Shown: piece by piece, positions 1,869-25,514 of the stretch
How positions within the stretch are numbered: position 1 is the first letter of the stretch
How the letters are laid out: each line of letters opens with the position of its first letter
IMG/VR virus record: IMGVR_UViG_3300023198_000288
Location: 1 to 25,514 of that record
Source of the DNA: a virus
Reading direction: 5' to 3' (one strand)
Length of the DNA stretch: 25,514 nucleotides
Program-made: the position numbers and the translations under genes
Notes under the pieces: model-generated
What the model was told of the DNA's origin: nothing
Database searches by the model: none
Seen by the model: only the letters and a program-made list of their open reading frames with translations

Positions 1869-1870
1869 AG

Positions 1871-4276
1871 ATGACAACACCTGAGAAGTTACGTAATATA
1901 AAAGGAAGATTAGCAGGTCAGACAGCAAGACCTAAGCATAAGTTACCCTTTAGCTCTAAGAAGAGTAAGGCAAATGGAGATGCCTCTGATTGGGGTATGA
2001 ATGCCATAGATTACTATGGAACACAAACTTGTATATCTACTTCAATTAAACAGGAGATGCGAGTCCTTTATAGACTTGCTAATGGTGTTATAGACGAATC
2101 TGATTATAGCTTTGTACTTAACCCGTATGGAGAAGAACAACGTAAGAGAGAAGCACTACAAGGTGATCCAGCAAGACTTAGGAACTACGATATAGTAGGG
2201 CCTGTAATGTCTAGGATCGTAGGAGACTTCATGATTAGAGATACTAACTTCCAAGTTGTTGCTACTAACTCAGATGTAGAAGAGAGGAGACAAGAGCAGA
2301 TACATAGTCAGATGAAAGCTGGCTTGATGCAACAGTTTAGGAATGAGTTGGCTAACCAAGGTATAGATACTGGATTTAGTAATCAAGAAGCTGAACTACA
2401 GGTAGATCAAATATTATCTGATGCTGCCGCAGTACCTGATGCCATGACTGTTAAAGGTCAGAGAGCAATGGACTATATCCAATACTATAATGAGTTGGAG
2501 AGAAAATATCGAATGGGCCTAGGAGACTATATGACAGTTGGTAGAGTCTTTAGTTATAGGGATGTATTTAGAGATAACACAGTCTTTGAAATAGTACATC
2601 CTATGGACTTTAACTATGTAGCTAATCAGAACGAAGAGTTTGTAGAAGACGGAGAATCATGCTACAAACGTATGTCTCTAACAGTTGGAGAAACTATTGA
2701 TCTATTTAGAGAAGATTTAGATGATGTTGAAATTGACTGGCTTGAGAGTGAGTACGGTATGGGCAGGACAGGTTTTGGAGACTCTAGAGAACAAACTCTA
2801 AGTGATGTAGATAACGATTGGAGAAGAAAGGATATGGATACCTTCTTCCAGAATGTATTTGGTGAAAGGCGCAATAAGAAGAAGTCTAATGTTATAGTTA
2901 AACACGTAACATTTAGGTCTAAAAGAAAGTTAGGTTATATGACCGTCTATAATATGATGGGAGAACCTGACACTATGGAGGTAGATGAGGATTTCAAACC
3001 ACGTGCAGGAGAAGAGGTAGAATGGGTATGGGTAGATGAGATATGGGAAGGATATAAGATTGGAGACAATATCTATAAGAGAGTACGACCATTACCTCTA
3101 CAGAGAGGTGACGTAAATGATCCTACTAACTGTAAGTTACCTTACAATGGTAGAACATTTGGATCACGTACAAGCATACCCAATACACCAGTCAAGAAAG
3201 GTAAATCTCATCAAGAACTATATAACATTCTTAAGTATAGATTAGAACGTACTATAGCTAAGAATAAGGATAAGTTTACAATCATACCTCTAGGTTTAGT
3301 ACCTGAGAAGGATAATATGGATATGTTTAGCATGATGTATTATGCTGACTACCACGGTTATATGTATGTAGATGAGTCCGATCCTAAGAAGATGCAAGCT
3401 CTACAACACATACGAGCAGTAGATGCAAGTATGAGAGAGTATATTAAGTTCCTACACGATATCTGTACTGGTATCAGAGCAGAGTATCTAGAGATAGTAG
3501 GAATACCACGACAGAAGATGGCTGATATTAAAGCCTCAGATGATGTAGGTAATACACAGACTGCATTGAATGAAGCGTCTTTGATACTAGAAGATAGCTT
3601 TGTATCATTTGAAGAGTTTATGGAGAAAGACTATACAGCTCTATTAGAGTTAAGTAAGTTTTCATGGATCAATGGTAGGAAAGCACAGTTCTTGAATACA
3701 GAGGGAGAGATGACTTGGATAGATATTGATCCGTTCATGCACACTGCTGCTGACTACTCTATATTTGTAAAGGGTAATAAGAGTGAGAGAGAAAAGCTAC
3801 GACAGATGAAAGCTCTATCGCAAGCCTTTGCTCAGAACTCAGCTACTCCTACAATGGTAGGTAAGATACTACAAGCTAATAACTTCGACTCTCTTATGAA
3901 GGAACTTGGTAGAATGGAAAAAGAGATGCAACAATCTCAACAAGCTAATGCAGAAGCAGAGCAGGCTTTAGCAGTTGAAGATCAGAAGAATAAGAAAGAT
4001 GAACTTGACTTCAAATACTATAAGACAGATGCAGACAATGCTAGTAGAGAGAAGATAGCATATGGCAGTGATAAAGCAGCTATCAGTACTAGTATGGTAG
4101 GAGAAGAGGCAGGAAATGCTGCATTGATTTCAGCTAATGAGAAGTTAGATGATCTATACAGTAAAGGTCAGGATGCAGCAGTAGAGTCAGATAAGACTCA
4201 GGCTAGTAGAGATAATAAGATGATTGATCTCGCTATAGCTAAGGAGAATAAAAATCAATACGACAAAAAGTCGTAG
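1871..4276 (+). CDS. Portal protein
   Basis: Forms the dodecameric ring at one capsid vertex through which DNA enters and leaves, and docks TerL and the neck. I start it at ATG 1871 (MTTPEKLRN, 801 aa); a GTG at 1859 would add four residues and overlap TerL by 10 nt, which is less likely because nearby genes start with ATG. The pattern follows crAss-like portals: an early segment with YRLANGVIDESDY and LNPYGEE, the conserved stretch NYDIVGPVMSRIVGDFMIRD, a mid-protein wing region, then EYLEIVGIPRQKMADIKASD followed by VGNTQTALNEAS, which matches the recalled signature of this family. The C-terminal roughly 150 residues are Gln/Glu/Lys-rich and probably coiled coil (QQSQQANAEAEQAL), as is usual for these portals. 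It ends with two adjacent TAG codons (4274-4279) inside a 6-bp hairpin. The next gene begins 23 nt later. Confidence 0.85.
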   Translation: MTTPEKLRNIKGRLAGQTARPKHKLPFSSKKSKANGDASDWGMNAIDYYGTQTCISTSIKQEMRVLYRLANGVIDESDYSFVLNPYGEEQRKREALQGDPARLRNYDIVGPVMSRIVGDFMIRDTNFQVVATNSDVEERRQEQIHSQMKAGLMQQFRNELANQGIDTGFSNQEAELQVDQILSDAAAVPDAMTVKGQRAMDYIQYYNELERKYRMGLGDYMTVGRVFSYRDVFRDNTVFEIVHPMDFNYVANQNEEFVEDGESCYKRMSLTVGETIDLFREDLDDVEIDWLESEYGMGRTGFGDSREQTLSDVDNDWRRKDMDTFFQNVFGERRNKKKSNVIVKHVTFRSKRKLGYMTVYNMMGEPDTMEVDEDFKPRAGEEVEWVWVDEIWEGYKIGDNIYKRVRPLPLQRGDVNDPTNCKLPYNGRTFGSRTSIPNTPVKKGKSHQELYNILKYRLERTIAKNKDKFTIIPLGLVPEKDNMDMFSMMYYADYHGYMYVDESDPKKMQALQHIRAVDASMREYIKFLHDICTGIRAEYLEIVGIPRQKMADIKASDDVGNTQTALNEASLILEDSFVSFEEFMEKDYTALLELSKFSWINGRKAQFLNTEGEMTWIDIDPFMHTAADYSIFVKGNKSEREKLRQMKALSQAFAQNSATPTMVGKILQANNFDSLMKELGRMEKEMQQSQQANAEAEQALAVEDQKNKKDELDFKYYKTDADNASREKIAYGSDKAAISTSMVGEEAGNAALISANEKLDDLYSKGQDAAVESDKTQASRDNKMIDLAIAKENKNQYDKKS

Positions 4277-5658: not shown

Positions 5659-7149
5659 ATGGGTGCATTTAATAAGGATTTACAACTGTATTCTGCTCAA
5701 TTCAATGATGATGAGTTCACAGCAGAAAACCACATGGCTAGAGCTTTGCAAACTGAAAGCGAGTGGCTTAGTCCAGCAACGACATTCCTGTATGGATCAG
5801 GTAGTGACTCGTTTGCTAATTACAACTTTCCAATGTTGTATTTAACCGAAGGACTTGGAAACATTTCTGATTCGGTATCAATTAGTAACACAGACCTTTC
5901 TTACAAGTGGCCTGTATTGGGTAGACCAAAGAAGACTTCTTCTATATCACAAAACCCATACGCAGCCACTGATAAGCCAGGAGCTGGTCACAGGACATTT
6001 AGAATGTACTTTAAAGATAAGCACTTCTTTAAAGGACAGGTGTGTTATACACCATCAGGTCTTGAAGCTCAAGTTCAGAGAGACCCAGAAAAGAATGGGG
6101 CTAATACTGACTACATCTATGAGTTTCAGTTGATTACTGGTAATGTCAATCTTTTCGTGCCACCACGTGACTTAGCAGTTGGAAAGAAGTGGGCGCAAGG
6201 TATCAAGAAAGTTTCCAAGGCACGTTCTAGAGGTGGAGAGCACAGAAGCTACACTCCTTATGAACTTACCAACCAGTTGTCAGTAGTTAGAGATTCCTAC
6301 AACATCGCTGGTAACATGGCCAATAAGGTTATGGTATATGAGGTAAGAGCAGGTGGAGAGAGCTTTAAGTTCTGGGCACAATGGGAGATGTACTTATCTG
6401 ATCTAGCACTTCGTGAGAAGTTAGAACATGATCTGTGGTACAGTAACTATAACAAAGACCCTGATGGAGTTATTCATAACCTTGACCCTGATTCAGGAGA
6501 GGTAGTAACTTCAGGAGCTGGTATTCTTGAGCAGGTCGATAACGTGGACACTTATGTGAACATGACTGCCAAGAAGATTGAAACTATTGTGAATGATCTA
6601 GTGTATAACGCTAGTGGAGCGCAGAACGTTTCTATTGACATCTTTACAGGTACAGGCGGTCTCAATGAGGCTTCTAAAGCGATGGAGAACAGAATGACAA
6701 GTTCAGGCTTGACATATGTTGATACATCAGGTGTTTCTGAGAAAGATGGTAACAACAAACGTACATACTACGGATTCTATTTCGATAGATACGTAACACG
6801 TGAAGGTCATACTATCAGGTTCCGACACCACCCTATGTTTGATAGAGGTGCGAAGTCAGAAACTGCCGAGTTACACCCAATTGATGGACGTCCAATGGAG
6901 TCATACAATATGTATGCCATTGATACTTCCACATATGATGGAGAGCCTAACGTACAGTATGTATCTGAAAAAGGAAGAGAGAACATTGAGAAGATAGTTT
7001 CAGGTATGTCTCCAATACCATTTGTAAGTGATTCCATGCAAGCATCTAGTGATATTGATGCAAGCTCTATTGAGCGCATGAAGACACAAGGTATTGCAAT
7101 CAAGAGACCTACAAACTGTCTTAAAATATTCAATACTATTTTAGGGTAA
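5659..7149 (+). CDS. Major capsid protein (probable HK97 fold)
   Basis: 496 aa, the size expected for the capsid protein of crAss-like and related podoviruses, and placed directly after the scaffold candidate. The protein is mixed alpha/beta with few charged repeats. Seen: an N-terminal arm (MGAFNKDLQLYSAQFNDDEF), segments that look like the E-loop and spine-helix region (NPYAATDKPGAGHRTFRMYF; FWAQWEMYLSDLALREKLEH), and a C-terminal half with beta strands (YYGFYFDRYVTREGHTIRFR; FRHHPMFDRG). Codon use differs from its neighbours: many C-ending codons (AAC, TTC, GAC, TAC), as seen for very highly expressed genes. It is preceded by a 63-nt A-rich leader without Shine-Dalgarno. The next gene begins 12 nt after the stop and carries a hairpin that may reduce read-through. 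The fold is inferred; no search was possible. Confidence 0.72.
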   Translation: MGAFNKDLQLYSAQFNDDEFTAENHMARALQTESEWLSPATTFLYGSGSDSFANYNFPMLYLTEGLGNISDSVSISNTDLSYKWPVLGRPKKTSSISQNPYAATDKPGAGHRTFRMYFKDKHFFKGQVCYTPSGLEAQVQRDPEKNGANTDYIYEFQLITGNVNLFVPPRDLAVGKKWAQGIKKVSKARSRGGEHRSYTPYELTNQLSVVRDSYNIAGNMANKVMVYEVRAGGESFKFWAQWEMYLSDLALREKLEHDLWYSNYNKDPDGVIHNLDPDSGEVVTSGAGILEQVDNVDTYVNMTAKKIETIVNDLVYNASGAQNVSIDIFTGTGGLNEASKAMENRMTSSGLTYVDTSGVSEKDGNNKRTYYGFYFDRYVTREGHTIRFRHHPMFDRGAKSETAELHPIDGRPMESYNMYAIDTSTYDGEPNVQYVSEKGRENIEKIVSGMSPIPFVSDSMQASSDIDASSIERMKTQGIAIKRPTNCLKIFNTILG

Positions 7150-11302: not shown

Positions 11303-12128
11303 CGCAAGAGTAATAACGGATAGAATCTATAGAGATTTTAAACCCTCAGACTCTACTTGGTTTGGGGATGCTTGGGATATGATAGGAGAAGCTATTGAAG
11401 GTATAGGGTATCACGTAGCCTTTGATAAAGTAGAAGATATATATAATGTGACTAGTGGTAATGTTAAGTGGACGAGAAAGTACACAGATATTAATTTTAT
11501 TGAGTATAAAGGATTAAATTTACCACTAGGAGGGGATAAGACTTCTGGAGGTATAGCTGGTAGTGAACAACCTACTGTTACAATAGATCCTTATAGGTTG
11601 AATAGAATGAATGAACTTATAACTCAGTGGGACAATCTAGAAGAGATGAAAGCTGGAGCTAGTCCAGAAGACGTTATAATCTACACAGCTAAACAAGCAG
11701 AAATTAGTAAAGAAATATCTAAACTAGCTAGTGAGTTAGCAGTTAAGTTAAATACTAATACTATAATAGGTCAGTACTATCAACTACTTGATGACTACAT
11801 ACTTACTTCTTTCCCTGAAGGAGAGATCAAAGTATATGGTACTGCGTTTCCTGTAGACCAAAATAATATACCTATGATTATAGATACCTATAAATATAGG
11901 AATGCTTGTTTCTTTAAGGTTGCAAGTCTGCTATGTCTACAAGGATACAAACATCCTGAGCTTGACTACGACAAAGCAGATGCTAAGTGGGAAGATTTTA
12001 GACACCAAGCATCTAACGAACCTAGAATAATGGATGCTGCCAAGCATGAGAGGTTTGCTAAGTTGTGGACTAGGTATAAGACTGATCCATATGAAGCTAG
12101 TACGTTCTTTAAAAACATTGAGCAATAA
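11289..12128 (+). CDS. Neck/tail structural protein
   Basis: 279 aa. The opening MQKISARVITDRIYRDFKPS followed by DAWDMIGEAIEGIGY resembles the N-terminus of a ring or tail-hub protein of crAss-like phages, in which a helical start is followed by W-x-x-IGEA and a glycine-containing turn. Later parts are a short loop rich in Gly and Pro (PLGGDKTSGGIAGSEQPTV), a long central coiled-coil-like segment (IYTAKQAEISKEISKLASEL), and the strand-turn-strand GEIKVYGTAFPVDQNNIPMI. The C-terminus is helical and charged. It overlaps the preceding gene by 14 nt and the next gene by one base (TAATG), so it is translated as part of the tail block. Specific identity within the neck is not resolvable by eye. 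Confidence 0.6.
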   Translation: MQKISARVITDRIYRDFKPSDSTWFGDAWDMIGEAIEGIGYHVAFDKVEDIYNVTSGNVKWTRKYTDINFIEYKGLNLPLGGDKTSGGIAGSEQPTVTIDPYRLNRMNELITQWDNLEEMKAGASPEDVIIYTAKQAEISKEISKLASELAVKLNTNTIIGQYYQLLDDYILTSFPEGEIKVYGTAFPVDQNNIPMIIDTYKYRNACFFKVASLLCLQGYKHPELDYDKADAKWEDFRHQASNEPRIMDAAKHERFAKLWTRYKTDPYEASTFFKNIEQ

Positions 12129-15100
12129 TGAAGTTACTTAAAGGGTCACAAACAGATATACCAGCGAAGAAGGCACCACAGGGTACTTGGAGACAGGCGC
12201 ATAACATAGTTATGAGAGGCGGAGTTCCAACTAACGAAGATGGAGTTGTGGAGGTAGCAAGCTTCTTGACTTTCACTCCTATAGGGGAGTTACTTCTACC
12301 TGATAATAGTTTACTTACTTGGCAAGTAGATGATGTAAACAACCGTATTGTTAGAACTAAAGATGGTATAGAGACTGTAGTTACTCCATTTAATTTTGGG
12401 TTGACTAAAGAGTATCCAGTAATAGCTAAAGCAAAATATACTAATGACTTAGATATAGAGGTTGTCTTCTCAGATAACTTTGGTAGACCTAGATTTATTA
12501 CTATTGATAAAACTACAGGGTTTATACAAGAAGATCAAATTGAAGATACCCTGTTGTTCCCTAAGATTACCATACCAGACTTTGAACTGATAGAAGTAGG
12601 TGGTGGAGGAAATTGGAGGAAAGGTAGTTATCAGGTATCCATAGCTTACCGGTTTACGGACGGGGGGTTCACGAACTGGATAGGTTCCTCTAATCCTATA
12701 ATCTTAAGGAGCAACGGTGGTAGCTTCACTATTAAGATAAACAATATAGATACTAACTTTGAAGAGTTTAAGATTGGTATAATTGCTGACAATGATGGTG
12801 TAGTTACGGCAGAAGAAACTTTCAATAACTTTACCATAATAGGAGATACGAAGAGTGCTACTCTCATAGGTGGAGGTAGTACAATAGCTATTGAGAGTAT
12901 CTTAGTTAAAGGGTTGAATTATAATAGAATAGGAGATTTTGCTGATATATCAGGTACTTTATATGCTAGTAACCTATCAAGAGATACCTCTATAGATTAT
13001 CAGCAATACGCTAACAATATAAAGATAGAACCTATATGGGATGATCCTGTAGCTTTAGATATTGTAGAAAGCTCATATGCGGATGCTATTATACTATTTG
13101 ATAAGAAGCACTTCACTAACGAAGAGATATATGCTTTCTATATCAATTGGATAGGAATGGATGGTATACCTTTAGGTAGTTGGCATATACCAATGACTAC
13201 AGGGCCTAGTACAATGAATCTTCATACTAACCTGAATGAAAGATACCCATCAGGTAAAGGGTATCCTGAAACAGGTGGGATAGGCGATCCAGTACGACAT
13301 CATAAGTTCCCTAAGACCTCAGCAGCTGACTTCTTAATAACTCCAAACAGTGGAGCTGCTAATGTATCTTCTTCATCGGGTATATCTCTTGTAGATAACT
13401 TTGATGGAAGTGGTTCATCAGCAGTTGCTTTTACATCAATATCAGGGACTTACGGTGTATTTGAGAATGACTCTCAGTATGCAGCTTTAACTAAGAATAC
13501 TTGGGTTGCAGGAACTACTGATGATATAGACATTACTATAGACTTTAAAATTACAAATACAGGAGACGATTCTGGTGCAATTCAAGTACTTGCTGAAGTG
13601 TATAGTGCTGGTGATGTTTTTATAAGAGGAGAAATAGATAGGTATTGGGTATATGACGGTAATGATACTGCGGAGATTACAACTAATGCTACTATATCTC
13701 TCAATGCAGGGGAGAAAGTACAAGTAAGGCTTATAGTTTATGGTGTATATACAGGTATACAAGTTACTACTGGAATAATTAAAATCTCAGAAGCTGATAC
13801 AGCCTTTGGTTCAGGAGCTAAGTACTTTACTAAGCCAATGGGTATTAAAGTTAGTAACGTAGTAATACCTCAAGGTCTACTAGATAGAGTACAATCATTT
13901 GAGATAATGTACGCTAAGAGAACACCAGCTAACTCATCAGTTGTAGCTCAGGATATTATATATCCTAGAGTCTACACAGGTTCATATATTGCAGATAGAG
14001 CAAAAGTGCATGACTTTGGTTTGATGTTAGATAAACCTAGTGTTAAACCTAACAAATTAAGAGGTCAATATACCTTACGAGAAAACTCTAGTGTAACTTT
14101 AAAGTATACTTATGTAGGAGATACTCCTACTTTAGTTACAGTAAATAGAAATATTGTAAGTAGTAAGTATGTACCTCACGATAATGTAGCAGCTAATAAT
14201 AAAAAAGGTGAAGAGCACTTTGAAGTTACATTAGATGCTCCTTATGATCCAACATCAGATAGTAGATTATTAGGTAATATTATTAATGAGAGAGATGATT
14301 ATTACTTATCTCTAGATACTCAGAATCTAGTAAGTACTGGTAAACAACACATAATTCCAAGTGATACAGTCAGTCCTCCACAAGGTTGGGTATGGGCTGG
14401 TAATCAATGGACAGTAACTATTGATAAATTGTATGGAGGTGACACTATAACTAGTTACTCTAAATTTAAGTTAAGCAAAGAGAATCCAGGTGTAGATGGT
14501 GGAGACACTAGTACTCTTAATATAAGACTCTCAACAGTACCAACTCAACAAAAAGTAAACTCTGCTTTAAGAGAGTGGGGTGATATATGGTATGAGAAAG
14601 AGCCACTTACTTATCCTGATAGAGGTACTTTAATCTCAGCTAATATACATCAAGATATAAGTGATAATAACTTAAATCAAGTTACTACTAAAGCATATGA
14701 GTTGTCTAAAGAGTATGCGGTGTATAAGGAGATAGATAGAGGATTCTTAGCCGAGAATGATAAGTTACAAGTTACTATACAAGGTCAATCAGTTACAGAA
14801 CATCCTCATAGAGTTATAGCTACACTAGAGCAGAACAAGGAGAGTGAAATTTCCTCATGGAGACAGTTCAAAGCTTCAGATTACTATGAACTAAATAAGG
14901 ATAGAGGTGAGATAACTAACTTAGCAGTATATGATACAGATAAGTTAGCTATACATCATGAAAGAGGTTTATTTGTTACCGCAGGTAAAGAGGTGCTTAA
15001 GACTGACATCTCTGAGATATTCTTAGGTTCAGGTAAGGTGTTCTCACGTGACCCTAAAGAACCTATCTATAGTGAGGAAGGGTTTTTAGGTAGTACTCAT

Positions 15101-15898
15101 AAGTTCTTTAATAAGACTACACCACTAGGATATGTATTTGAAAGCGAAGGTAAGATATTCATACTATCTAAGAGCTTAGAAGAAATATCTAAGAAGGGTA
15201 AAACGTATCACTTTGCTGACCTAATAGATGGAGTAGGGGATAACCCTTATATACAGAACGAGACTGATCCATCATTTGTAGGAGGTATGTCACTATCTTA
15301 TGATAAGAACTTAAATAGAATCTTAGTAAGTATCAATAAACTGAATGCTTCTGAAACTTGGTCATACTCTTTAGATATAGGAGCGTGGATAGGTACTCAT
15401 GACCTTACATTAAGTAAGTTATTCAATTCAGCTAAGAAGTATTATTCATTAGCTAAGAACAAACTATTTAGACATGAGGCTAATAATAAGTGTAAGTACT
15501 ATGATGGAGTAGCTAGAGATCATTGGATAGAACTATCACTTGTTGATGGAGAGGATATAACTAAGTTACATGAAGCAGTATTGTGGAATGATACAGTTAT
15601 AGATGGTAATACTACTTTAAAGGATGAAACATTTAAGTCTATACAAATCAAAGACAGTCATCAAGATACAGGTGAAAGAACTTTGGTTAAGCTAGTAGAT
15701 TTAAACACGGATCACAATCTACGTAAAGCTTTTAATACTTGGAGATATAATAAGTTACGTTTAGAAGCAGTAGATTATGATAATAGAAAGAAGTTTATAG
15801 ATGATCATATCATAGTTAAACTTACCTTTGATAATATCAATCAGTATGAGCACTTCATATCTGACATTTCAATAAGTTATAGAGTTATAAATATATAA
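12128..15898 (+). CDS. Long tail protein of stabilisation/muzzle type
   Basis: 1256 aa. The start MKLLKGSQTDIPAKKAPQGT followed by WRQAHNIVMRGG is characteristic of a large family in Bacteroidota phages, recalled as tail stabilisation or muzzle protein, in which a leading disordered segment is followed by a beta-propeller-like scaffold. The body has repeated beta strands (YPVIAKAKYTNDLDIEVVF; FGRPRFITID), a Gly-rich turn (EVGGGGNWRKGSYQVSIAYR), and the paired motifs VRHHKFP (residue 389 on) and MGIKVSNVVIP (residue 571 on). Between them lies about 165 residues of Ser/Thr/Gly-rich all-beta sequence that looks like an insertion. The C-terminal third contains more strand-like blocks such as FVGGMSLSYDKNLNRILVSI, DIGAWIGTHD and a closing HFISDISISYRVINI. 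It likely forms the distal nozzle of the tail. One-base overlap with the preceding gene. Confidence 0.65.
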   Translation: MKLLKGSQTDIPAKKAPQGTWRQAHNIVMRGGVPTNEDGVVEVASFLTFTPIGELLLPDNSLLTWQVDDVNNRIVRTKDGIETVVTPFNFGLTKEYPVIAKAKYTNDLDIEVVFSDNFGRPRFITIDKTTGFIQEDQIEDTLLFPKITIPDFELIEVGGGGNWRKGSYQVSIAYRFTDGGFTNWIGSSNPIILRSNGGSFTIKINNIDTNFEEFKIGIIADNDGVVTAEETFNNFTIIGDTKSATLIGGGSTIAIESILVKGLNYNRIGDFADISGTLYASNLSRDTSIDYQQYANNIKIEPIWDDPVALDIVESSYADAIILFDKKHFTNEEIYAFYINWIGMDGIPLGSWHIPMTTGPSTMNLHTNLNERYPSGKGYPETGGIGDPVRHHKFPKTSAADFLITPNSGAANVSSSSGISLVDNFDGSGSSAVAFTSISGTYGVFENDSQYAALTKNTWVAGTTDDIDITIDFKITNTGDDSGAIQVLAEVYSAGDVFIRGEIDRYWVYDGNDTAEITTNATISLNAGEKVQVRLIVYGVYTGIQVTTGIIKISEADTAFGSGAKYFTKPMGIKVSNVVIPQGLLDRVQSFEIMYAKRTPANSSVVAQDIIYPRVYTGSYIADRAKVHDFGLMLDKPSVKPNKLRGQYTLRENSSVTLKYTYVGDTPTLVTVNRNIVSSKYVPHDNVAANNKKGEEHFEVTLDAPYDPTSDSRLLGNIINERDDYYLSLDTQNLVSTGKQHIIPSDTVSPPQGWVWAGNQWTVTIDKLYGGDTITSYSKFKLSKENPGVDGGDTSTLNIRLSTVPTQQKVNSALREWGDIWYEKEPLTYPDRGTLISANIHQDISDNNLNQVTTKAYELSKEYAVYKEIDRGFLAENDKLQVTIQGQSVTEHPHRVIATLEQNKESEISSWRQFKASDYYELNKDRGEITNLAVYDTDKLAIHHERGLFVTAGKEVLKTDISEIFLGSGKVFSRDPKEPIYSEEGFLGSTHKFFNKTTPLGYVFESEGKIFILSKSLEEISKKGKTYHFADLIDGVGDNPYIQNETDPSFVGGMSLSYDKNLNRILVSINKLNASETWSYSLDIGAWIGTHDLTLSKLFNSAKKYYSLAKNKLFRHEANNKCKYYDGVARDHWIELSLVDGEDITKLHEAVLWNDTVIDGNTTLKDETFKSIQIKDSHQDTGERTLVKLVDLNTDHNLRKAFNTWRYNKLRLEAVDYDNRKKFIDDHIIVKLTFDNINQYEHFISDISISYRVINI

Positions 15899-15901
15899 GT
15901 T

Positions 15902-16657
15902 ATGAGCTGTATAAGTAAAAGACATACACGTAAGCAGATGGGTATGGGTGGTCAGATAGCTGGTGGCGCTTTGAAAGGTGCAGGTAAAGGAGCTTCAATA
16001 GGCTCAATTATCCCTGGAATTGGTACAGGTATAGGAGCAGCGGTAGGTACTGTTATAGGAGGAGTTAGTGGTTGGTTACGAGGAAAAAAAGAAGAGGAAG
16101 AAGCAGAGGCAGCAGCTAGAAGAAGTTCCGCTATAGCTGATGCAGGAAATTATATGCAAGACTTATCTTATCTACAGGCATTTGATAATCAGTATAATGG
16201 AAAATTTGGATTGGATATGGGATCTAGTTTCAATAGGGGTGTTGGAGTACCATTTAATGCAGAGATAAACCCTCAGTTAATAGCTTCTGATGTAACACAG
16301 ATAGAAGGGCCTGATCACAACAATGGTGGTGTAGGGGTAGATGCTGATCTTGATGGGTATAGTGAATTTGAGCTAGAGGGTGACGAGACCACAAAGGGAC
16401 AATTAGTCTTCTCAAAGAGGTTAAAGGTGCCACAAGGTTTTGTTGATATGGCATCAGATGAAGGCTTCTCAGTTAAGAGAGGCAACTATGCAGAAGTTGC
16501 AGAAAGTCTTGGTAGGCAACAAAAGAAGTATGAGGATAAAAGTGAGACGATGGATAGGGCGACAGCCAATACTTCGATGTTAATGCTAGAAAGAATAGAA
16601 AATTTGTTTGATAACTTGTATTATACGCAAGAATTTAGTAAGTTGAATAAAAGGTAA
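15902..16657 (+). CDS. Glycine-zipper protein, possible membrane-active or internal virion protein
   Basis: 251 aa. Residues about 15-63 form a long small-residue hydrophobic segment with repeated GxxxG spacing (GGALKGAGKGASIGSIIPGI, then GTGIGAAVGTVIGGVSGWLR), ended by a charged run KKEEEEAEAAARR. Such segments occur in phage ejection proteins, membrane-channel formers and holin-like peptides. The middle carries IEGPDHNNGGVGVDADLDG followed by EFELEGDE, which resembles a G-P-x-H-x-x-GG-[VI] then E-x-E-G-x-E motif I recall from other Bacteroidota phage structural proteins, function unknown. The C-terminus is helical. It lies 3 nt after the tail gene and before other candidate ejected proteins. 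The sequence contains an A7 run (16085-16091) at GKKEEE; frameshifting there is not supported. Confidence 0.6.
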   Translation: MSCISKRHTRKQMGMGGQIAGGALKGAGKGASIGSIIPGIGTGIGAAVGTVIGGVSGWLRGKKEEEEAEAAARRSSAIADAGNYMQDLSYLQAFDNQYNGKFGLDMGSSFNRGVGVPFNAEINPQLIASDVTQIEGPDHNNGGVGVDADLDGYSEFELEGDETTKGQLVFSKRLKVPQGFVDMASDEGFSVKRGNYAEVAESLGRQQKKYEDKSETMDRATANTSMLMLERIENLFDNLYYTQEFSKLNKR

Positions 16658-18191: not shown

Positions 18192-20129
18192 ATGCCAGAA
18201 ATGAATTTTCAACCTTTAGATAGGAGGGTAGCAAAGGCACCAGTAGGTGCTTTTTCTTCTTTAATAGGACAAAGGTTAGAAGAATATAGGATGGGTGAGA
18301 ACATCACCGAGACTGCTAAGGAGGCATTAGGAACCTTTGCAGTAGCAGGTGGAGATGAAGAACTTAGAAATAGTATAGCTGATTCTCTTAATACTGATTT
18401 AGATGTACTTCTTGATCAGTATAATGGGAGGTATGAATCTGTAGCATTCCAACGTGATGCCAAAAAGACTATATTAGACTACGCTAAGAAGATGGAATTT
18501 CCAGCCATGAAAGGAACTTTGGAGTCAATCGCTTATGAAGATGAACTTAGAAGAGAGGTAGCCTCTAATCCAAACTTACAACTATATGACTTCAAACCTG
18601 GTGCCCCCAAAGCTACAACGTGGACACCTGAACTAGGACATCAAAGTTATCAGACAGGTCTAGAGGTTGCTCAAGATCATCTAACAGATGCTAAAAATCA
18701 TATAGGTAAGATAGTTGCTAATGCAGGAGATATAGGCAATGGCCCTTCTTTTGAGTTACTACAACAAGAGGGTATGAAAGACCTATGGGCAATGTCCAAA
18801 GGTAGCTGGGAAGGAGTATCTAAAGGAAGAGCTAAGACTAGAGCAGATGAAGTAGTAGAGCAATTTGCACAGTCTTCACAAGGAGGTCATCAATTCTTAC
18901 GTAAGTACTTGTTAGAGAACCCTGAGCTAAAGGGAGAAGCCTATAACGAAGATGGCAGTATGAAAGATTCAGTACGAGCTAAGATAGCTGGTTACTTATA
19001 TACTGTTGCTAAAGGTCAAACATTCAGTAGATCACATACTGATTGGTCTGTACCTGCTGCACTTAATAGGAAGACAGAAACTATTGACCCACTTACAGGT
19101 GCGAGAGTTACACAAGTTGATCTTCATAATAACCCATTGTCTGCAAGAATGCAACCATTAGAAGAAGAGAATTTTGAAGGTAAAGGATTGCAAGGAGAGT
19201 TAAGAGAAGAGAGAAACAGACTTAATATGTTGTTTTATAGAGCAGTACCTCCTGGTACTAAATCACATCTTTCGGAGGAAGAAAAAGAGAGAAGGCTTAA
19301 GCTAAACAACATGAATGAAAGTTTAGTTGATAAAAAAGGTCTTACTTCTTTTATACAATCATTTATCAAACAAGATGGTACGTGGGATAGAGAAAGTTTA
19401 GAAGAAGATCATCTTGGACTTCCACTTGTATATGAGACAGCACTTGCAGATTTAGGAGTTACTAATGAGGAGATTGTAAATCTCGATCCTGCTATGACTA
19501 CCTTCATAGATGATAAGGTGTTGAAGATGTATAATACCAAGATACAAAGTAATGAAGTACAAATAAGTAAAGGATATACTTTAGATAAGCAGGGAGTAGA
19601 AGATTGGGATCGTAATATGATGGGTAAAGGTAAGTCAAACTTTGGTCGTCTTAAGAACTCAGGATTTATTGATGCTAATGGAAAAGGATTAGTTTGGGAA
19701 GATATTATTAAGAGACATAAGATTGATGAAGATGATCCTAAAGCTATGGCAGCTTTTAAAGAGTCAGTTGTTCTTAATCAGAACTTAATACCTATACTAG
19801 ATAATTCAGTATCTCTCATTAATATAGGATCACAACAATATAGAGTACAGAGTTCAGAGGCAGCACAAGCAATGAAAGCTGCTAACTTATCAGCTATTGG
19901 AGAGATAGCTAGAGGAGATAAAACTGAGGGTGAAATTGTAAGTCTATCCTTTATGGGTGGAGTATCAGGTCAGTTTGTAGCTCATGACTCCTGGGATGAT
20001 AACGACTCCTATGATGGAACGGGGATTGCTTTTAGAATACGTGATCCAAAAGACCCTACTAAGTTTGGTCTTATACCAGTAAATCAAGTGATAGAGCAAT
20101 ACTTAAGATTTTCTAACTTCTATAAGTAA
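18192..20129 (+). CDS. Large virion-module protein, possible internal (cargo) protein
   Basis: 645 aa; family not recognised. It is largely helical and soluble with scattered acidic and basic clusters. The N-terminus FQPLDRRVAKAPVGAFSSLI is followed by an amphipathic helical region (VAFQRDAKKTILDYAKKMEF), a moderately Gly/Ser-rich central part (LLQQEGMKDLWAMSKGSWEG), the polar loop ITSHTDW-like area at residues 275-295 (SRSHTDWSVPAALNRKTETI), and later strands (QYRVQSSEAAQAMKAANLSA; VSLSFMGGVSGQFVAHDSWD). The end has FRIRDPKDPTKFGLIPVNQ followed by a short helix. A second Met at residue 4 is an alternative start. The gene overlaps the giant gene by one base (TAATG), which strongly links the two in translation. 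Being coupled to the giant protein, it likely shares its role, such as packaging into the head or ejection at infection. Confidence 0.65.
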   Translation: MPEMNFQPLDRRVAKAPVGAFSSLIGQRLEEYRMGENITETAKEALGTFAVAGGDEELRNSIADSLNTDLDVLLDQYNGRYESVAFQRDAKKTILDYAKKMEFPAMKGTLESIAYEDELRREVASNPNLQLYDFKPGAPKATTWTPELGHQSYQTGLEVAQDHLTDAKNHIGKIVANAGDIGNGPSFELLQQEGMKDLWAMSKGSWEGVSKGRAKTRADEVVEQFAQSSQGGHQFLRKYLLENPELKGEAYNEDGSMKDSVRAKIAGYLYTVAKGQTFSRSHTDWSVPAALNRKTETIDPLTGARVTQVDLHNNPLSARMQPLEEENFEGKGLQGELREERNRLNMLFYRAVPPGTKSHLSEEEKERRLKLNNMNESLVDKKGLTSFIQSFIKQDGTWDRESLEEDHLGLPLVYETALADLGVTNEEIVNLDPAMTTFIDDKVLKMYNTKIQSNEVQISKGYTLDKQGVEDWDRNMMGKGKSNFGRLKNSGFIDANGKGLVWEDIIKRHKIDEDDPKAMAAFKESVVLNQNLIPILDNSVSLINIGSQQYRVQSSEAAQAMKAANLSAIGEIARGDKTEGEIVSLSFMGGVSGQFVAHDSWDDNDSYDGTGIAFRIRDPKDPTKFGLIPVNQVIEQYLRFSNFYK

Positions 20130-23100
20130 TGGGTAAGGAGAGAACTATAAACATAGATGAAGTAGTAGGAACTCTAGGAGCAGGTTCTCGTGGATACGAA
20201 GGTATTAAAGAGGACGAAAGAATCATAACTCCGGAAGAGATCAACGAACTTTTTTCACAGGACGTAAGTACCTATGGGCAGTTCAATACACAAACTCCTT
20301 ACAGTACTCTAGGTAAGTATGATAAAAACATGGTCTATGGTCAAGACCAACGACTATTTAGAGCAACACACCAACCAGCGTCACATCAAGCTACTAATGC
20401 TATAGTAGGAGGTTTAGGAAGTGGGCTATTAACTATGATAGAAGATGCAGGTTATATAGGAGACTTACAGAATAATCTAAGTAGATTACAAGGAATAGAG
20501 AACGTAGAGAGTAATTGGCTATCTGACTGGGCTAAGAAGAACAAAGAAACTATCACTCAGGACTTACTACCTATTTATAGAAGGAATGATGATATGATAG
20601 ACTGGGGAGACTCAGGTTTCTATTGGGAGGCTATGAGAGGCTTACTTGATTCTGCCGTAGGATTCGGTGGGTTAGGTCTTGGAGTAGCTACAGGAGTTAA
20701 GACTATAGGTAAATTAGTTTCTCTTAGTAAGAGAGCTAAAAGATTAGGAGCTTATATGGAAGGTATAGCCCCTTTCCTTGAAGGAGCAGGAGGTAAAGCA
20801 CAACAGTTTACTTCTGCCTACATTACAAACTTCGGAGAAGGTAAGATGATGGCTCTTGAGATGTATGAGAATACATTCAATGAGATCAAAGAGGCTAATC
20901 CTAATATGTCAGAAAGAGAGATCAGGACTATAGCAGGACATAGAGCTGACCAATTCATGTTAGCCAACAAAGCATTTATAATAACTGATGCTTTCGCATT
21001 AGCTGGACTTGCAAGAGGTGTTAATAGCACAAGGAATAAGGCTAGAGAGTTGTCAGCTAGATCATTCATGAAGAGCTTCGGTAAGGTATCTAAGGATAAC
21101 CCACTAATGCAAGCAGGAGCAGAAGCTTTAGAGGAGATAGGACAGAATGCTGCACAGATGGAAGCTGATTACAGAGCTAAACTAGATGCAGGTATTACTC
21201 AGGATAAACTTCCTACTAACTTGGAAGAGAGACTCTTCAAGTTTGCTACTAGTGAGCAGGCACTTCTTGAAGGAGCAATGGGTTTCTTTGGAGGCCCAAT
21301 CCAGTATGGTATAATACAAGGGCCACAAGACTTGGCTAATCGTAAGGATATACGTAGTCACTTCGATGAGCAAGTTAAGCAAGTAGAAGCTAACAAGCAA
21401 TTCTTCAATAAGAAACTTAAGAGTCATATTGATACTCATATAGCAGTAGAAGAAGCTCAACTTAATGGTCAGCAATTCATAGCTAGTGAGCATAGAGAAG
21501 ATTTATTCTCAGATATAGCTTATGATAACTTTGAGAGAGGTACTACTGATCAACTAGAGAGATCATTAGAAGACATAAGAGATAATGAGGAACAAGCAGC
21601 TGAGCTAGGATTAGGAGAGAACTATAAAGAAGATGTTGCTAATCAACTTGCTCAACTCCAAGAAATGGAAGGTGAGTATATCAAAATGAAGAGGAAGTAT
21701 AGTGATCCTATGTATCAACGCTTCCATAAAGACATTTTTAAAACTCAACGTTTATTAAACAAAGCTCAAGAGAGATTATTAGGTGTAGACAATGCTTATA
21801 ACGCTAAGCAGACTGAAATAGTAGATAGGTTAAATCGGGATAGAGCAGAGAAGTTACATTCGGCAACTACTCAGTTACCTATGCTTAAGATGGAACGTAA
21901 TACTATCCAAGATACTTTAAATACTTCTAATAAGATCAAAGAAGGTATTCAGTATCGTAATAGGCAGATAGACTATAGAAGAAAAAAAGGTCTTGATAAG
22001 AAGGAGATTAAGGCACGTACTAATCGCATTACTGGGATCATAAAGAATACTGAGAAGCAACTAGCTTCTATAGAGGAGAAGATTAAAATTAATGAGCAGT
22101 TACTTAAAGACTTAAATCAACCTCAACAATCAGTTGAGTTAGATGATATGATGAGTAAGGAGATAACTGATTTACAGGTTGAAAGAAACTTACTTGGAAG
22201 TTATGCGAAAGAATTACAAGATAGACTTACTACTGTCACAAATGAGCAATCAGTTAAAGAACTGTTGCAAGATATCGAAGAGATTGATAGAGAGGCTATT
22301 GCTAATGCAAAAAACTCGGAAGATAGGGAACAAGATCAACTACAAGAAGAAGAAGAGGCGGCGAATGCTGCTGCAGAGCAAGCTCAATCCCAAACACCTG
22401 ATGAAGTTGAAGGGCAGACTCAATCAACCCCAGCTCAGAAACAGGGAGACGAAGAGCAATTGGAAACACCAACAGAAGGAAATGTTGCAGTAGTAGGTGA
22501 AAAGAAACCTAAAATTATTAAGAAGAAAAAGACTAAGGCTGAGGAAAATGTACCTACAGTATCTACATCTGCTCAAGAGAGTGAAGATAGTGATCAGTCT
22601 ATTTCTCCACAAGAGACAACTACAAGTACTTCTAAGAGACAAGCTGCTACAGACTTTAATGATTTAATGCACCGTTTAATAGTAGAGACATCAGAATTAG
22701 TTACTGATGATAACCAGACTAGTGAGATCGCAGATGAAGATAGGGGGAAGATAAATTTTAGTTTTAATAGTATAGCCTACTTATCACGAAACTATATCCA
22801 TATACTTAAGTTGAAGGATGGTAAACTTACTAGCCAACTAACTGACTCTAGCGATCAACTATCTGGTGATCTAAAAGATCCTAAACTATTATCGGTTAAT
22901 GAATACCAAGAAGGAACTAATCTTACTTTATTTATAGATGAAGATTTTGTAGACCCTAAGACAAAAGAAACTTATAACGACTTACTTGAGAAAGGAAAAG
23001 AACTAGAGGCCGCACGTTCAGTGGAGCCAGGAACAGAAGTATTAGGAGATCGTACGTATGACTTCATCCCTATAGGAATTAAGAATAAAGGGGGTAAACT

Positions 23101-25514
23101 AATAGGTAATTTACATAATACAGACTATCCAGCTAAAAGAACTAAGGAGGAGAATAGAGATGAAGATGAGGTAGAAATAAGGAGGATTAGGAATATCCTT
23201 ATGAAGCAGATGGGCGGAACCTTTGATACAATAGTAACAGAGAAGAGATTAGGGAAGCTTGCAGTTATAAAGGGTGGAGAACCTATAACACTAGGTGAAG
23301 CAATGAAAGATCCTAATCTTATATTAGCCACTAAAACATCTAAGGGAATCATTACTTCAACTGGACAAACTATAGATACAGGAGGATCAGTAATAAGACC
23401 TGGATTTGCCTATGCTTTAGTGAAGAAAGATAATAAAGAGTATGTTGCTATACCCCTACTATCTAAGCGGTTGAGTAAGGAGCATCGGTCTTCACTCCTA
23501 TCGGGTCTAAAAGTCTTTCTCGATAAGGACGTAACAAGTAGTACTGCCAGAGATATGAAAGAAAATGGCTACAACCTTGCTACACTTGGGGATATGCAAA
23601 AGTACGTTAGATCGTTTATGGGGTTAGCAAACCTTCCTAGAGGTAAGTTCCTAAGAGAGTTTATACTATCAGATAATAGTGCTAACTCTTACTTAGAGAT
23701 AACAAACACAGGTATTGAAGCTACAACTGGTGGAGCTACTGAGTATATTACTGCCTTTGAAGAGGGTGGAGTTATGAAGTACTATGCAGGTCTTGGCTCA
23801 CAGAATAAGATAGTTACTCAACAGAGAGTTGATGAGTTTATAGATAAGAATGGTAGAGAGCCTAATGAAGAAGAAGCTCTAGCTATAGCTAATGATATAG
23901 CAGCTAAGTCTAATAAAGTAGAACGAAAGTCTATACAACAAGATGAGTTCTTACGTAGATTAGATAGTATTCTCAATAAGGCATACTACCATACTAATGC
24001 TACTAGATTACAAAGTAATGATGGTTCTATACCTATTATCTCTCCTGATGATGGTACAGTATCTAATGAAGGAACTAGTTATACTGACTTCCTTAAGAAT
24101 GCTTATGAAACTAATGTAATAGATTTTGACTTAGGAGATGGAGAATATACTTCTTTTGTTCAGCCTATTATAAGGTTTGATACTTCCTTTGGGGGTACAC
24201 AAGAACAAGTAAATCAAGCAGCAGTTGTACCAGCAGGGCCAACAACAGCAGCTACTGTTCCATCAACTCCAATAATAATTGAAGATAAGAATGTAGGACT
24301 TACTATAGCTCTTGATGAGTATGAAGATTTTCCTGATGTAGATATACCATTTGATGCTGGTATTAAACAGGGTGTAGATTCCGTATTTGAACAAAACCCA
24401 GAATTATCTAGTATAGGAACTCAAGAACAATACTCTCAGTATCTTGATACTATCTTTCCAGATAGTAAAGAGAAAGATATTGTATATCACGGTACAACAG
24501 AATTTGTAGGAGATACATTTAAGAAAGAAAAATTAGCTTCCCTAACAGGTAAAGGTACAGCAAGTGTAGGTTTTCACTTTTCTGACAAACCTACAGCAAC
24601 CTCTTTTGGTATCCCAAGTAAACTAAGAACAGGAAAAGAAATATTTACAATTCCTGTATTACTTAATATGCGTAGTCCTAAACCTATGCAAGATATAACA
24701 GAGTTAAGAGGTAGTTTAGCAAAAGGGGGACATATTGAACCTTCTACAAAAGCAAGAGAATTAATTACACAAGGATATGACTCAATAGCGATAAGAGAGT
24801 ACCAAGGAGGTATTGATAACATAGTATTTGAACCACAACAAATACATATATTAGGTTCTAAAAAAGATATAAGAGGGTTTAAGAGTTATATAGGAAGAAG
24901 AACTTCTAGTGTACCATTCGATGCAGAAGCTCAGAAGAATCTAACAGAAGGACTTAAACGACATAGGATACTAGATATGTCTGCTATGCAACAAGAAGAA
25001 CTACTTAGTTCTTTTACTGCTAGTATCCTTAAAGAGTTAGTAGATACTAAGGGCAAAGTAACAATGTCCGCAGCTTTTAAAAGGTTACAGAGTCATCTAG
25101 AGGTAACAAAGATAAACGTACAGTCATCAAAGGTTAAACAGACTACTAAAGATACTGTAGTAAGTAACATAGATAACGTACTAAGTCAGTGGGATAAAGT
25201 ACAAGAGCTTTTAGTTAGAAAGGTTCGAGCTACTACTGCTATTCGATCTAAAGTTATCATAGCTGAGGAAGAAGAGTCAAGTGGTGTAGATGCTGAGATT
25301 CAAGATACTATTGCTGATATAGAAGGTTATAATGAGAAGGTTGATTATGATCGTAGTTCTTTAGAACTTGATCCTAAGGATACTATAAGTATGAGACTTA
25401 AGCATTTCTTCTCTAGTATAGTAGATGTTAATAAGAATACTAATAAGTCTAAGATTAACTCTTACATACCTTATCTTAAGTTTGTACCTTACGATGCAGT
25501 TTATGCTGAGTTAT
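20129..25514 (+). CDS. Giant multidomain (polyvalent-type) virion protein with ADP-ribosyltransferase-like domain, 3' end outside window
   Basis: One frame runs without a stop from ATG 20129 to the window end (1795 codons). Order of regions: residues 1-165, polar with a GYEGIKEDERI-type start; 176-200, a glycine-rich hydrophobic segment (AVGFGGLGLGVATGVKTIGK); about 330-400, AGAEALEEIGQNAAQ and a second Gly/hydrophobic patch (EGAMGFFGGPIQYGIIQG); about 408-740, long charged coiled coils; about 740-845, a low-complexity Gln/Glu/Pro/Thr/Ser linker with a Lys cluster (PKIIKKKKTK); about 845-1405, a globular region I cannot name, with FIPIGIKNKGGKLIGNLHNT; 1421-1580, an ADP-ribosyltransferase-like domain; then TTAIRSKVIIAEEEE and a final part with ISMRLKHFFSSIVD. 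Giant proteins of this layout in phages and conjugative elements are known as polyvalent proteins and can be injected with DNA. Packaging here is inferred from position after the tail genes and coupling to the 645-residue gene. Confidence 0.85.
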   Translation, partial: MGKERTINIDEVVGTLGAGSRGYEGIKEDERIITPEEINELFSQDVSTYGQFNTQTPYSTLGKYDKNMVYGQDQRLFRATHQPASHQATNAIVGGLGSGLLTMIEDAGYIGDLQNNLSRLQGIENVESNWLSDWAKKNKETITQDLLPIYRRNDDMIDWGDSGFYWEAMRGLLDSAVGFGGLGLGVATGVKTIGKLVSLSKRAKRLGAYMEGIAPFLEGAGGKAQQFTSAYITNFGEGKMMALEMYENTFNEIKEANPNMSEREIRTIAGHRADQFMLANKAFIITDAFALAGLARGVNSTRNKARELSARSFMKSFGKVSKDNPLMQAGAEALEEIGQNAAQMEADYRAKLDAGITQDKLPTNLEERLFKFATSEQALLEGAMGFFGGPIQYGIIQGPQDLANRKDIRSHFDEQVKQVEANKQFFNKKLKSHIDTHIAVEEAQLNGQQFIASEHREDLFSDIAYDNFERGTTDQLERSLEDIRDNEEQAAELGLGENYKEDVANQLAQLQEMEGEYIKMKRKYSDPMYQRFHKDIFKTQRLLNKAQERLLGVDNAYNAKQTEIVDRLNRDRAEKLHSATTQLPMLKMERNTIQDTLNTSNKIKEGIQYRNRQIDYRRKKGLDKKEIKARTNRITGIIKNTEKQLASIEEKIKINEQLLKDLNQPQQSVELDDMMSKEITDLQVERNLLGSYAKELQDRLTTVTNEQSVKELLQDIEEIDREAIANAKNSEDREQDQLQEEEEAANAAAEQAQSQTPDEVEGQTQSTPAQKQGDEEQLETPTEGNVAVVGEKKPKIIKKKKTKAEENVPTVSTSAQESEDSDQSISPQETTTSTSKRQAATDFNDLMHRLIVETSELVTDDNQTSEIADEDRGKINFSFNSIAYLSRNYIHILKLKDGKLTSQLTDSSDQLSGDLKDPKLLSVNEYQEGTNLTLFIDEDFVDPKTKETYNDLLEKGKELEAARSVEPGTEVLGDRTYDFIPIGIKNKGGKLIGNLHNTDYPAKRTKEENRDEDEVEIRRIRNILMKQMGGTFDTIVTEKRLGKLAVIKGGEPITLGEAMKDPNLILATKTSKGIITSTGQTIDTGGSVIRPGFAYALVKKDNKEYVAIPLLSKRLSKEHRSSLLSGLKVFLDKDVTSSTARDMKENGYNLATLGDMQKYVRSFMGLANLPRGKFLREFILSDNSANSYLEITNTGIEATTGGATEYITAFEEGGVMKYYAGLGSQNKIVTQQRVDEFIDKNGREPNEEEALAIANDIAAKSNKVERKSIQQDEFLRRLDSILNKAYYHTNATRLQSNDGSIPIISPDDGTVSNEGTSYTDFLKNAYETNVIDFDLGDGEYTSFVQPIIRFDTSFGGTQEQVNQAAVVPAGPTTAATVPSTPIIIEDKNVGLTIALDEYEDFPDVDIPFDAGIKQGVDSVFEQNPELSSIGTQEQYSQYLDTIFPDSKEKDIVYHGTTEFVGDTFKKEKLASLTGKGTASVGFHFSDKPTATSFGIPSKLRTGKEIFTIPVLLNMRSPKPMQDITELRGSLAKGGHIEPSTKARELITQGYDSIAIREYQGGIDNIVFEPQQIHILGSKKDIRGFKSYIGRRTSSVPFDAEAQKNLTEGLKRHRILDMSAMQQEELLSSFTASILKELVDTKGKVTMSAAFKRLQSHLEVTKINVQSSKVKQTTKDTVVSNIDNVLSQWDKVQELLVRKVRATTAIRSKVIIAEEEESSGVDAEIQDTIADIEGYNEKVDYDRSSLELDPKDTISMRLKHFFSSIVDVNKNTNKSKINSYIPYLKFVPYDAVYAEL
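22340..22650 (+). other. Low-complexity linker in the giant protein
   Basis: The encoded stretch is mostly Glu, Gln, Ala, Thr, Ser and Pro (for example EEEEAANAAAEQAQSQTPDE and later SAQESEDSDQSISPQETTT) with one Lys-rich patch. It separates the coiled-coil half of the giant protein from its globular half. It is likely disordered, which would suit a protein that must unfold to pass through the portal. Confidence 0.6.
24389..24868 (+). other. ADP-ribosyltransferase-like domain (polyvalent-protein ART type) within the giant protein
   Basis: Residues about 1421-1580 show the expected order of this enzyme fold, which transfers ADP-ribose from NAD to a target. A lead-in NPELSSIGTQEQYSQYLDTI is followed by VYHGTT (His1454, the NAD-binding strand), then SVGFHFSDKPTATSFG (G1481-F-H-F-S, the second conserved strand), then FTIPVLLNMRSPKP, the turn GYDSIAIREY, and the last strand NIVFEPQQIHI with Glu1568 and Gln1571 as candidates for the third catalytic position. 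I recall this combination (YHGT, GFxFS/T, VFxPxQI) from the ART domains of phage polyvalent proteins. The family call is strong by pattern; whether it is active is uncertain, as the third catalytic residue cannot be placed without alignment. Confidence 0.82.

Follow-up and report, generated by a model that had tools for sequence, protein, structure and literature searches.

A predicted ADP-ribosyltransferase domain at the joint of a fused RNA polymerase polypeptide in a Crassvirales-type phage fragment

Results

The window analyzed here, which is the whole 25,514-nucleotide stretch (positions 1 to 25,514) of the IMG/VR virus record IMGVR_UViG_3300023198_000288, is a Crassvirales-type fragment. 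It codes in crassvirus order for a large terminase, a portal, a major capsid protein, two ring proteins (1 and 2) and a muzzle protein, with matches to phrog_6681, phrog_6547 and phrog_11589 and with PF24228, PF25702 and PF25731 over their cut-offs. The major capsid protein (5659..7149, + strand, as are all features described below) is of the crassvirus type (phrog_11589, E 7e-80; crassvirus matches), and its relatives belong mostly to crAss-like phages, among them gut phages of this type and phi14:2-like phages of Bacteroidota. The muzzle protein (12128..15898; PF25731, 62.6 bits) is followed by a 251-aa ORF (15902..16657) with weak matches, below cut-off, to crassvirus cargo protein 1 and glycine-zipper proteins. 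A 645-aa ORF (18192..20129) is homologous to the ORF that precedes the giant gene in the nearest relative, contig G002; its position fits that of cargo protein 2, but there is no detectable homology to it and the assignment was rejected. Directly after it comes a giant ORF (20129..25513), whose start codon overlaps the end of the 645-aa ORF (TAATG) and which runs for 1795 codons with no stop to the contig end, so that its product has at least 1795 aa.

A previous sequence-only reading of this DNA had described a frame of at least 1795 codons carrying YHGTT, GFHFSD and NIVFEPQQI, and re-reading of coordinates and residues found the motifs as claimed, all of them inside residues 1421-1580 (24389-24868). 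When the giant protein was shuffled 20,000 times, a regular expression that fixed the order and spacing of the three motifs never matched. The giant gene follows the tail genes, as that reading had noted, the phage is crAss-like, and the protein is homologous to virion cargo. The giant protein is, however, no separate internal protein beside the RNA polymerase (RNAP): it joins the RNAP-associated protein to the RNAP in one chain, and the ADP-ribosyltransferase (ART) lies at the joint.

The giant protein is an RNAP-associated virion protein, an ART and the start of a crassvirus virion RNA polymerase in one ORF. The RNAP-associated part (residues 1-1348; 20129..24172) matches cr108_1 gp054 over residues 45-665 with 28% identity and is collinear with G002, and profile comparison links its wider family to phi14:2 g067 (E 4e-6). 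It is followed by a 262-residue segment (1349-1610; 24173..24958) that contains the ART. Residues 1633-1795 (25025..25513), which end at the contig end, are matched by positions 102-263 of an iterated phi14:2 gp66 profile (45 bits), and a profile built from this stretch and six relatives, with phi14:2 left out, matches 6vr4 (E 2.2e-4), a solved phage DNA-dependent RNA polymerase. The window covers only the first ~160 residues of the RNAP part, and the catalytic DFDxD would lie past the contig end. With unrelated enzymatic domains (RNAP-associated, ART and RNAP start) in one giant polypeptide, this is a polyvalent-type protein.

G002 codes for the same fusion in a single 5331-aa ORF, where the RNAP spans ~1548-3777 and GSDFDVDK lies at ~3130. 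Window and G002 align in order over residues 50-774/65-811, 842-1348/952-1404 and 1611-1795/1544-1721, but G002 has no ART, only ~140 residues where the window has 262. Since the parts on either side of the ART are fused and collinear in the relative as well, the ART is, on comparison of the two proteins, a clean insertion at the joint of the RNAP-associated and RNAP parts. ART-PolyVal was absent from 17 other records, which included five annotated crassviruses and eleven relatives of the giant protein.

The ART domain (residues 1421-1580; 24389..24868) matches PF18760 (ART-PolyVal) in Pfam-A over residues 1451-1572. Its curated cut-off is 31.2 bits; the whole ORF scored 26.6 bits, below it, while the domain alone scored 35.1 bits (E 2.7e-8), as the sequence-only reading had predicted for this region, and a six-frame search of the record gave 33.2 bits, again above it. 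The PARP profile (PF00644) in Pfam did not match the window domain, which has an H-H-D rather than an H-Y-E active site, and PHROGs, PADLOC and NCBIfam returned nothing significant for the domain. A PDB sequence search that used the ART profile yielded nothing beyond weak matches to KptA, so the fold assignment rests on the Pfam match and on a structural model. The AlphaFold2 model, made from 42 aligned modules (pLDDT 85, pTM 0.81), resembles the ARTs of PARPs and tankyrases. The best PDB matches by Foldseek were ADP-ribosyltransferases and close kin, namely tankyrase (probability up to 0.98), AcrIF11, MbcT, NatT and KptA, although none had an E-value below 1e-3 (best E 6e-3). After structural realignment all 50 entries listed were PARP1, PARP2 or tankyrases (Z 8.3-8.9, ~130 residues aligned). 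The matches agree as a group but are distant, with 8-14% identity. The comparison with ART folds thus came out as the earlier reading expected, and the model points to a split beta-sheet ART fold within the giant ORF.

His1454 (24488..24490), the H of YHGTT, occupies the first active-site position, as had been proposed, and is conserved as His in 70 aligned modules against Arg in 9, among those with a letter there. The proposal of Glu1568 as the catalytic residue fared less well. The structural superpositions stop at model residue 173, which is window residue 1577, opposite PARP1 1002, TNKS1 1305, TNKS2 1152 and PARP2 572. The catalytic glutamates, which we take to be PARP1 988, TNKS1 1291, TNKS2 1138 and PARP2 558, each lie 14 residues before that end, and this places Asp1563 (24815..24817), not Glu1568, at the position of PARP Glu988. 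The catalytic acid is therefore most likely D1563, probably not E1568, if the structural ranges are read without gaps, a reading that we infer from the alignment anchor. The triad would be H1454-H1483-D1563. Its second member, His1483 (24575..24577), stands at the Tyr position of GFYF (GFHFSD in the window), which is normally Tyr or Phe; the column holds Y 40, F 23 and H 8, so that His occurs in only ~8 of 71 aligned modules, and phage F116 has Tyr. Of the ART-PolyVal features, then, the strand-1 His is present (H1454), the strand-2 Tyr is absent (H1483), and the strand-5 acid would be D1563. The make-up of this column shows that the strand-2 Tyr is a loose feature in this branch, and the domain is an ART-PolyVal variant rather than a canonical member.

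Because H1483 replaces the usual Tyr, activity of the domain is not assured, and the module could be an inactive ART fold that serves as a spacer or folding unit at the fusion joint, its catalysis lost with the change from Tyr to His. Some relatives have lost other catalytic positions as well (Arg for His, Thr or Val at 1563). On the other side, His1454 and the acid at 1563 are retained, a spacer is unnecessary since G002 does without the module at this joint, and a pure spacer would leave unexplained why ART folds are found at three kinds of sites (see below). We regard this explanation as improbable. The conservation of H1454 and of the module ends across many phages argues for a working protein.

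Relatives of the ART domain were found at 71 loci in IMG/VR, retrieved through part of the N-terminal motif of the module. They often share a contig with a crassvirus capsid gene and lie in the ORF of a crassvirus-type RNAP or in an adjoining one, and the accompanying RNAPs retain GSDFDxDK. The site of the module varies. It can be at the joint before the RNAP or follow the RNAP, it can lie at the start of a g065-like protein (in G020 its site corresponds to the stretch between residues 104 and 123 of phi14:2 g065), and in a single case, G037, it is within the RNAP, shortly past the catalytic DFDID region. Module positions were counted as 39/7/1, mostly at loci found via the module's own motif, and this count is not a frequency estimate. 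A less biased figure comes from sampling by RNAP alone, where 11 of 80 crassvirus-type RNAP loci (one near-identical pair included) had an ART within reach, 7 of them in the same ORF, as detected with an HMM that contains the module ends. In this sample L136, L138, L142 and L163 have the ART directly before the RNAP, like the window. On an RNAP tree of 74 rows, the 10 rows with ART require 10 state changes, and the trait is therefore scattered on the tree.

Searches outside these samples gave little. By tblastn against 50,697 annotated phage records, the window domain found only a distant F116 protein and two other modules found no matches. Neither the whole giant protein nor the portal, used as single sequences, matched anything among viral contigs, while alignment queries did retrieve relatives there.

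The module has conserved ends and a variable core. The N-terminal end (residues 1424-1457, ...LSSIGTQEQYSQYLDTIFPDSKEKDIVYHGTT; 24398..24499) has ~59% pairwise identity outside the search motif among 42 modules, and the C-terminal end (residues 1563-1590, DNIVFEPQQIHILGSKKDIRGFK...; 24815..24898) has 62%. The mean pairwise identity of 59-62% in these ends, ...NPELASIGTQEQYSQYLDTIFPDSKVKDIVYHG and EPEQIHILGSKQDIEGFK, compares with 19% in the core of the same 42 modules, and modules sampled by RNAP gave 64% and 58% for the ends and 21% for the core. The C-terminal end was never seen without the N-terminal end in 69 ORFs, and 29 of the 42 modules match ART-PolyVal by themselves. Between phages, codons are identical at ~70% of the shared residues of the module ends. 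At codon level the ends are only slightly above the core, and recent gene conversion is for that reason not supported.

Very similar module ends in many phages might mislead an assembler, and the window could then be a metagenome misassembly in which this repeat-like module joined two phages. The lower GC3 of the ART (0.13, against 0.26 and 0.22 on its two sides) would fit such a join. Both flanks, however, match the same G002 protein, in order and far better than any other, the codon identity just given makes for modest nucleotide identity of the ends between phages, and the four loci named above have the same joint architecture. Misassembly is very improbable, the least credible of the explanations considered here.

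Discussion

The ART carried by this phage has its closest described counterparts in the polyvalent proteins. Like the ART-PolyVal domains of the Tox-ART-HYD2 clade, such as gp60 of Pseudomonas phage F116 (Iyer et al. 2017, PMC5512222), it has the profile match, the strand-1 His and a strand-5 acid, and it resides inside a giant phage protein. The active site of that family is described as H-Y-D (PMC5512222), whereas the window has His for the strand-2 Tyr, its own ends (IFPDSKVKD..., EPEQIHILGSKQDIEGFK), a short strand-1 lead and a crassvirus RNAP cargo setting. Fusion of an ART to a virion RNA polymerase is also known, since N4-like virion RNAPs with ART and metallopeptidase domains have been reported, as in Roseovarius Plymouth podovirus 1 (PMC5512222). 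In both cases an ART is joined to a polymerase that accompanies the DNA into the cell, or in the window protein would be expected to do so. The N4-like enzyme, however, is a T7-like single-subunit RNAP, while the RNAP start in the window, the remainder of which lies past the contig end, matches the unrelated two-barrel crassvirus type (6vr4). What was known already is thus the ART in polyvalent proteins, including those fused to N4-like RNAP; what is new is the crassvirus-type polymerase, the His in place of Tyr and the conserved ends. ARTs were surveyed in ~3% of siphoviruses and podoviruses (PMC9503650), and we found no description of an ART in crAss-like phages or Crassvirales in a literature search that covered mainly open-access papers and is not proof of absence.

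Among crassviruses, the RNAP cargo of phi14:2 (g065-g067), phiCrAss001 (gp47/49/50), cr108_1 (gp054) and p-crAssphage (an 'RNAP associated protein fused to zincin protease') has homologous parts in the same order behind the muzzle, but ART-PolyVal was not found in any of the five annotated crassviruses searched. In cr108_1 gp054 the same joint, between an RNAP-associated part (65-717) and an RNAP part that starts at 1753, holds HESFH, an HExxH zincin-like motif. These homologues also bear on delivery. The annotation of phi14:2 g067, g066 (the RNAP) and g065 comes from virion MS/MS, and the RNAP-associated gp47, gp49 and gp50 of phiCrAss001 were detected in a mass spectrometry study that proposes their ejection before the DNA, in a partly unfolded state (PMC10172136). 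Delivery of the window's giant protein into the host would be expected by analogy with these homologues. The earlier comparison with phage T4 Alt, a head-packaged, injected ART that acts on the host, stands as an analogy for delivery but not as one of family, since Alt is a separate protein of the Alt/VIP2 clade with an R-S-E active site and the window has H-H-D.

The reading we favor, with a probability of roughly 0.6, is that the ART is a cassette in one RNAP-associated/RNAP polypeptide that is packed in the virion, injected and ADP-ribosylates host macromolecules at the start of infection. The profile and fold, the fusion, the insertion and the recurrence come from our analysis and the virion presence and ejection of homologues from the literature, and delivery, catalysis and a host target are what the reading adds to them. 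The giant polypeptide (RNAP-associated part, ART and RNAP) would be packaged in the capsid, pass through the tail in unfolded form before the DNA and refold once it is in the host cytoplasm. Tethered to the phage polymerase, the ART would there consume host NAD+ and mono-ADP-ribosylate host macromolecules before phage gene expression, with the transcription machinery or a defence factor as candidate targets.

The strongest rival is that the injected ART is an anti-defence enzyme that disables an immune system, as AcrIF11 does, the hypervariable core reflecting changing immune targets. AcrIF11 (6kyf) is a phage ART of the same fold and the second Foldseek match, it ADP-ribosylates Csy1 of the Csy/CRISPR complex (PMC12421852), and, by mutation, its activity relies on His/Tyr and Asp/Glu residues (PMC12421852). 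The low core identity between conserved ends (19-21%) and the patchy distribution on the RNAP tree (10 changes for 10 ART rows) fit such a role. AcrIF11, however, is small, stand-alone and expressed in the cell, no sequence similarity links it to the window domain and PADLOC had no match, while early delivery is compatible with both readings. We hold an anti-defence role to be unlikely, if less so than the other alternatives.

Another alternative is that the targets of the ART are the phage polymerase or its associated proteins, whose modification would switch or license early transcription. The module is in or beside the RNAP gene at most sampled loci, and once inside the RNAP. Most crassvirus RNAPs nevertheless work without it, 69 of the 80 RNAP loci having none within reach, and the phage ARTs known so far mostly target host molecules. 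Self-modification seems to us a poor candidate, somewhat behind the inactive module discussed above.

Crassviruses dominate gut viromes, and a question on which this ART bears is the role of their huge injected cargo proteins beyond transcription. Under the favored reading of an injected, host-directed cassette, the ART, as part of the polymerase chain, would reach the cell ahead of all phage gene expression and serve in host takeover, probably to reprogram or disarm the bacterium within the first minutes after infection starts. A broader proposal, which we advance tentatively and hold at a little under even odds, is that the ART is an exchangeable, mobile effector cassette of crassvirus virion polymerases, with a fast-changing catalytic core, inserted repeatedly at joints of, beside or inside the polymerase, and with ends that may be a docking, processing or recombination element. 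If so, the polymerase that these phages deliver has a tailored host-modifying enzyme joined to it. The pattern of conserved ends around a variable core can also serve in the search for crassvirus effectors in metagenomes. A scan of a genome collection found the module on five MAG contigs, two of them from an archaeal MAG, which are probably stray phage contigs.

In the crassvirus cr108_1, gp054 (L002, 19818-28721) carries a zincin-like HExxH motif at residue ~1520, at the joint between the RNA polymerase (RNAP)-associated and RNAP parts, where the giant protein of the window has the ADP-ribosyltransferase (ART) module. With HExxH in one protein and ART in the other, this joint looks as if it were an exchangeable slot. 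A copy of the module was also observed within the RNAP itself, at residues ~1413-1545 of a 2441-aa ORF at locus L043 (G037), where it lies ~50 residues downstream of the catalytic DFDID, at a site equivalent to that between positions 1413 and 1433 of the phi14:2 RNAP, gp66.

Two to three ART modules per giant protein or across adjoining ORFs are present in L022, L032, L021 and L034, and their cores are strongly diverged.

The 645-aa protein of the window (18192-20129, + strand) occupies the position of crassvirus cargo protein 2 and is conserved in the nearest relative (G002), but no homology to known cargo proteins was found. The 251-aa protein (15902-16657, + strand), which combines a glycine-zipper stretch with a weak match to cargo protein 1, is possibly a membrane-channel ejection protein.

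Five contigs with the ART module (L117-L121) come from bacterial or archaeal MAGs, assigned to Nomurabacteria, Nitrososphaeraceae, Flavobacterium and uncultured organisms. Two of them belong to a single archaeal MAG and are probably misbinned phage contigs.
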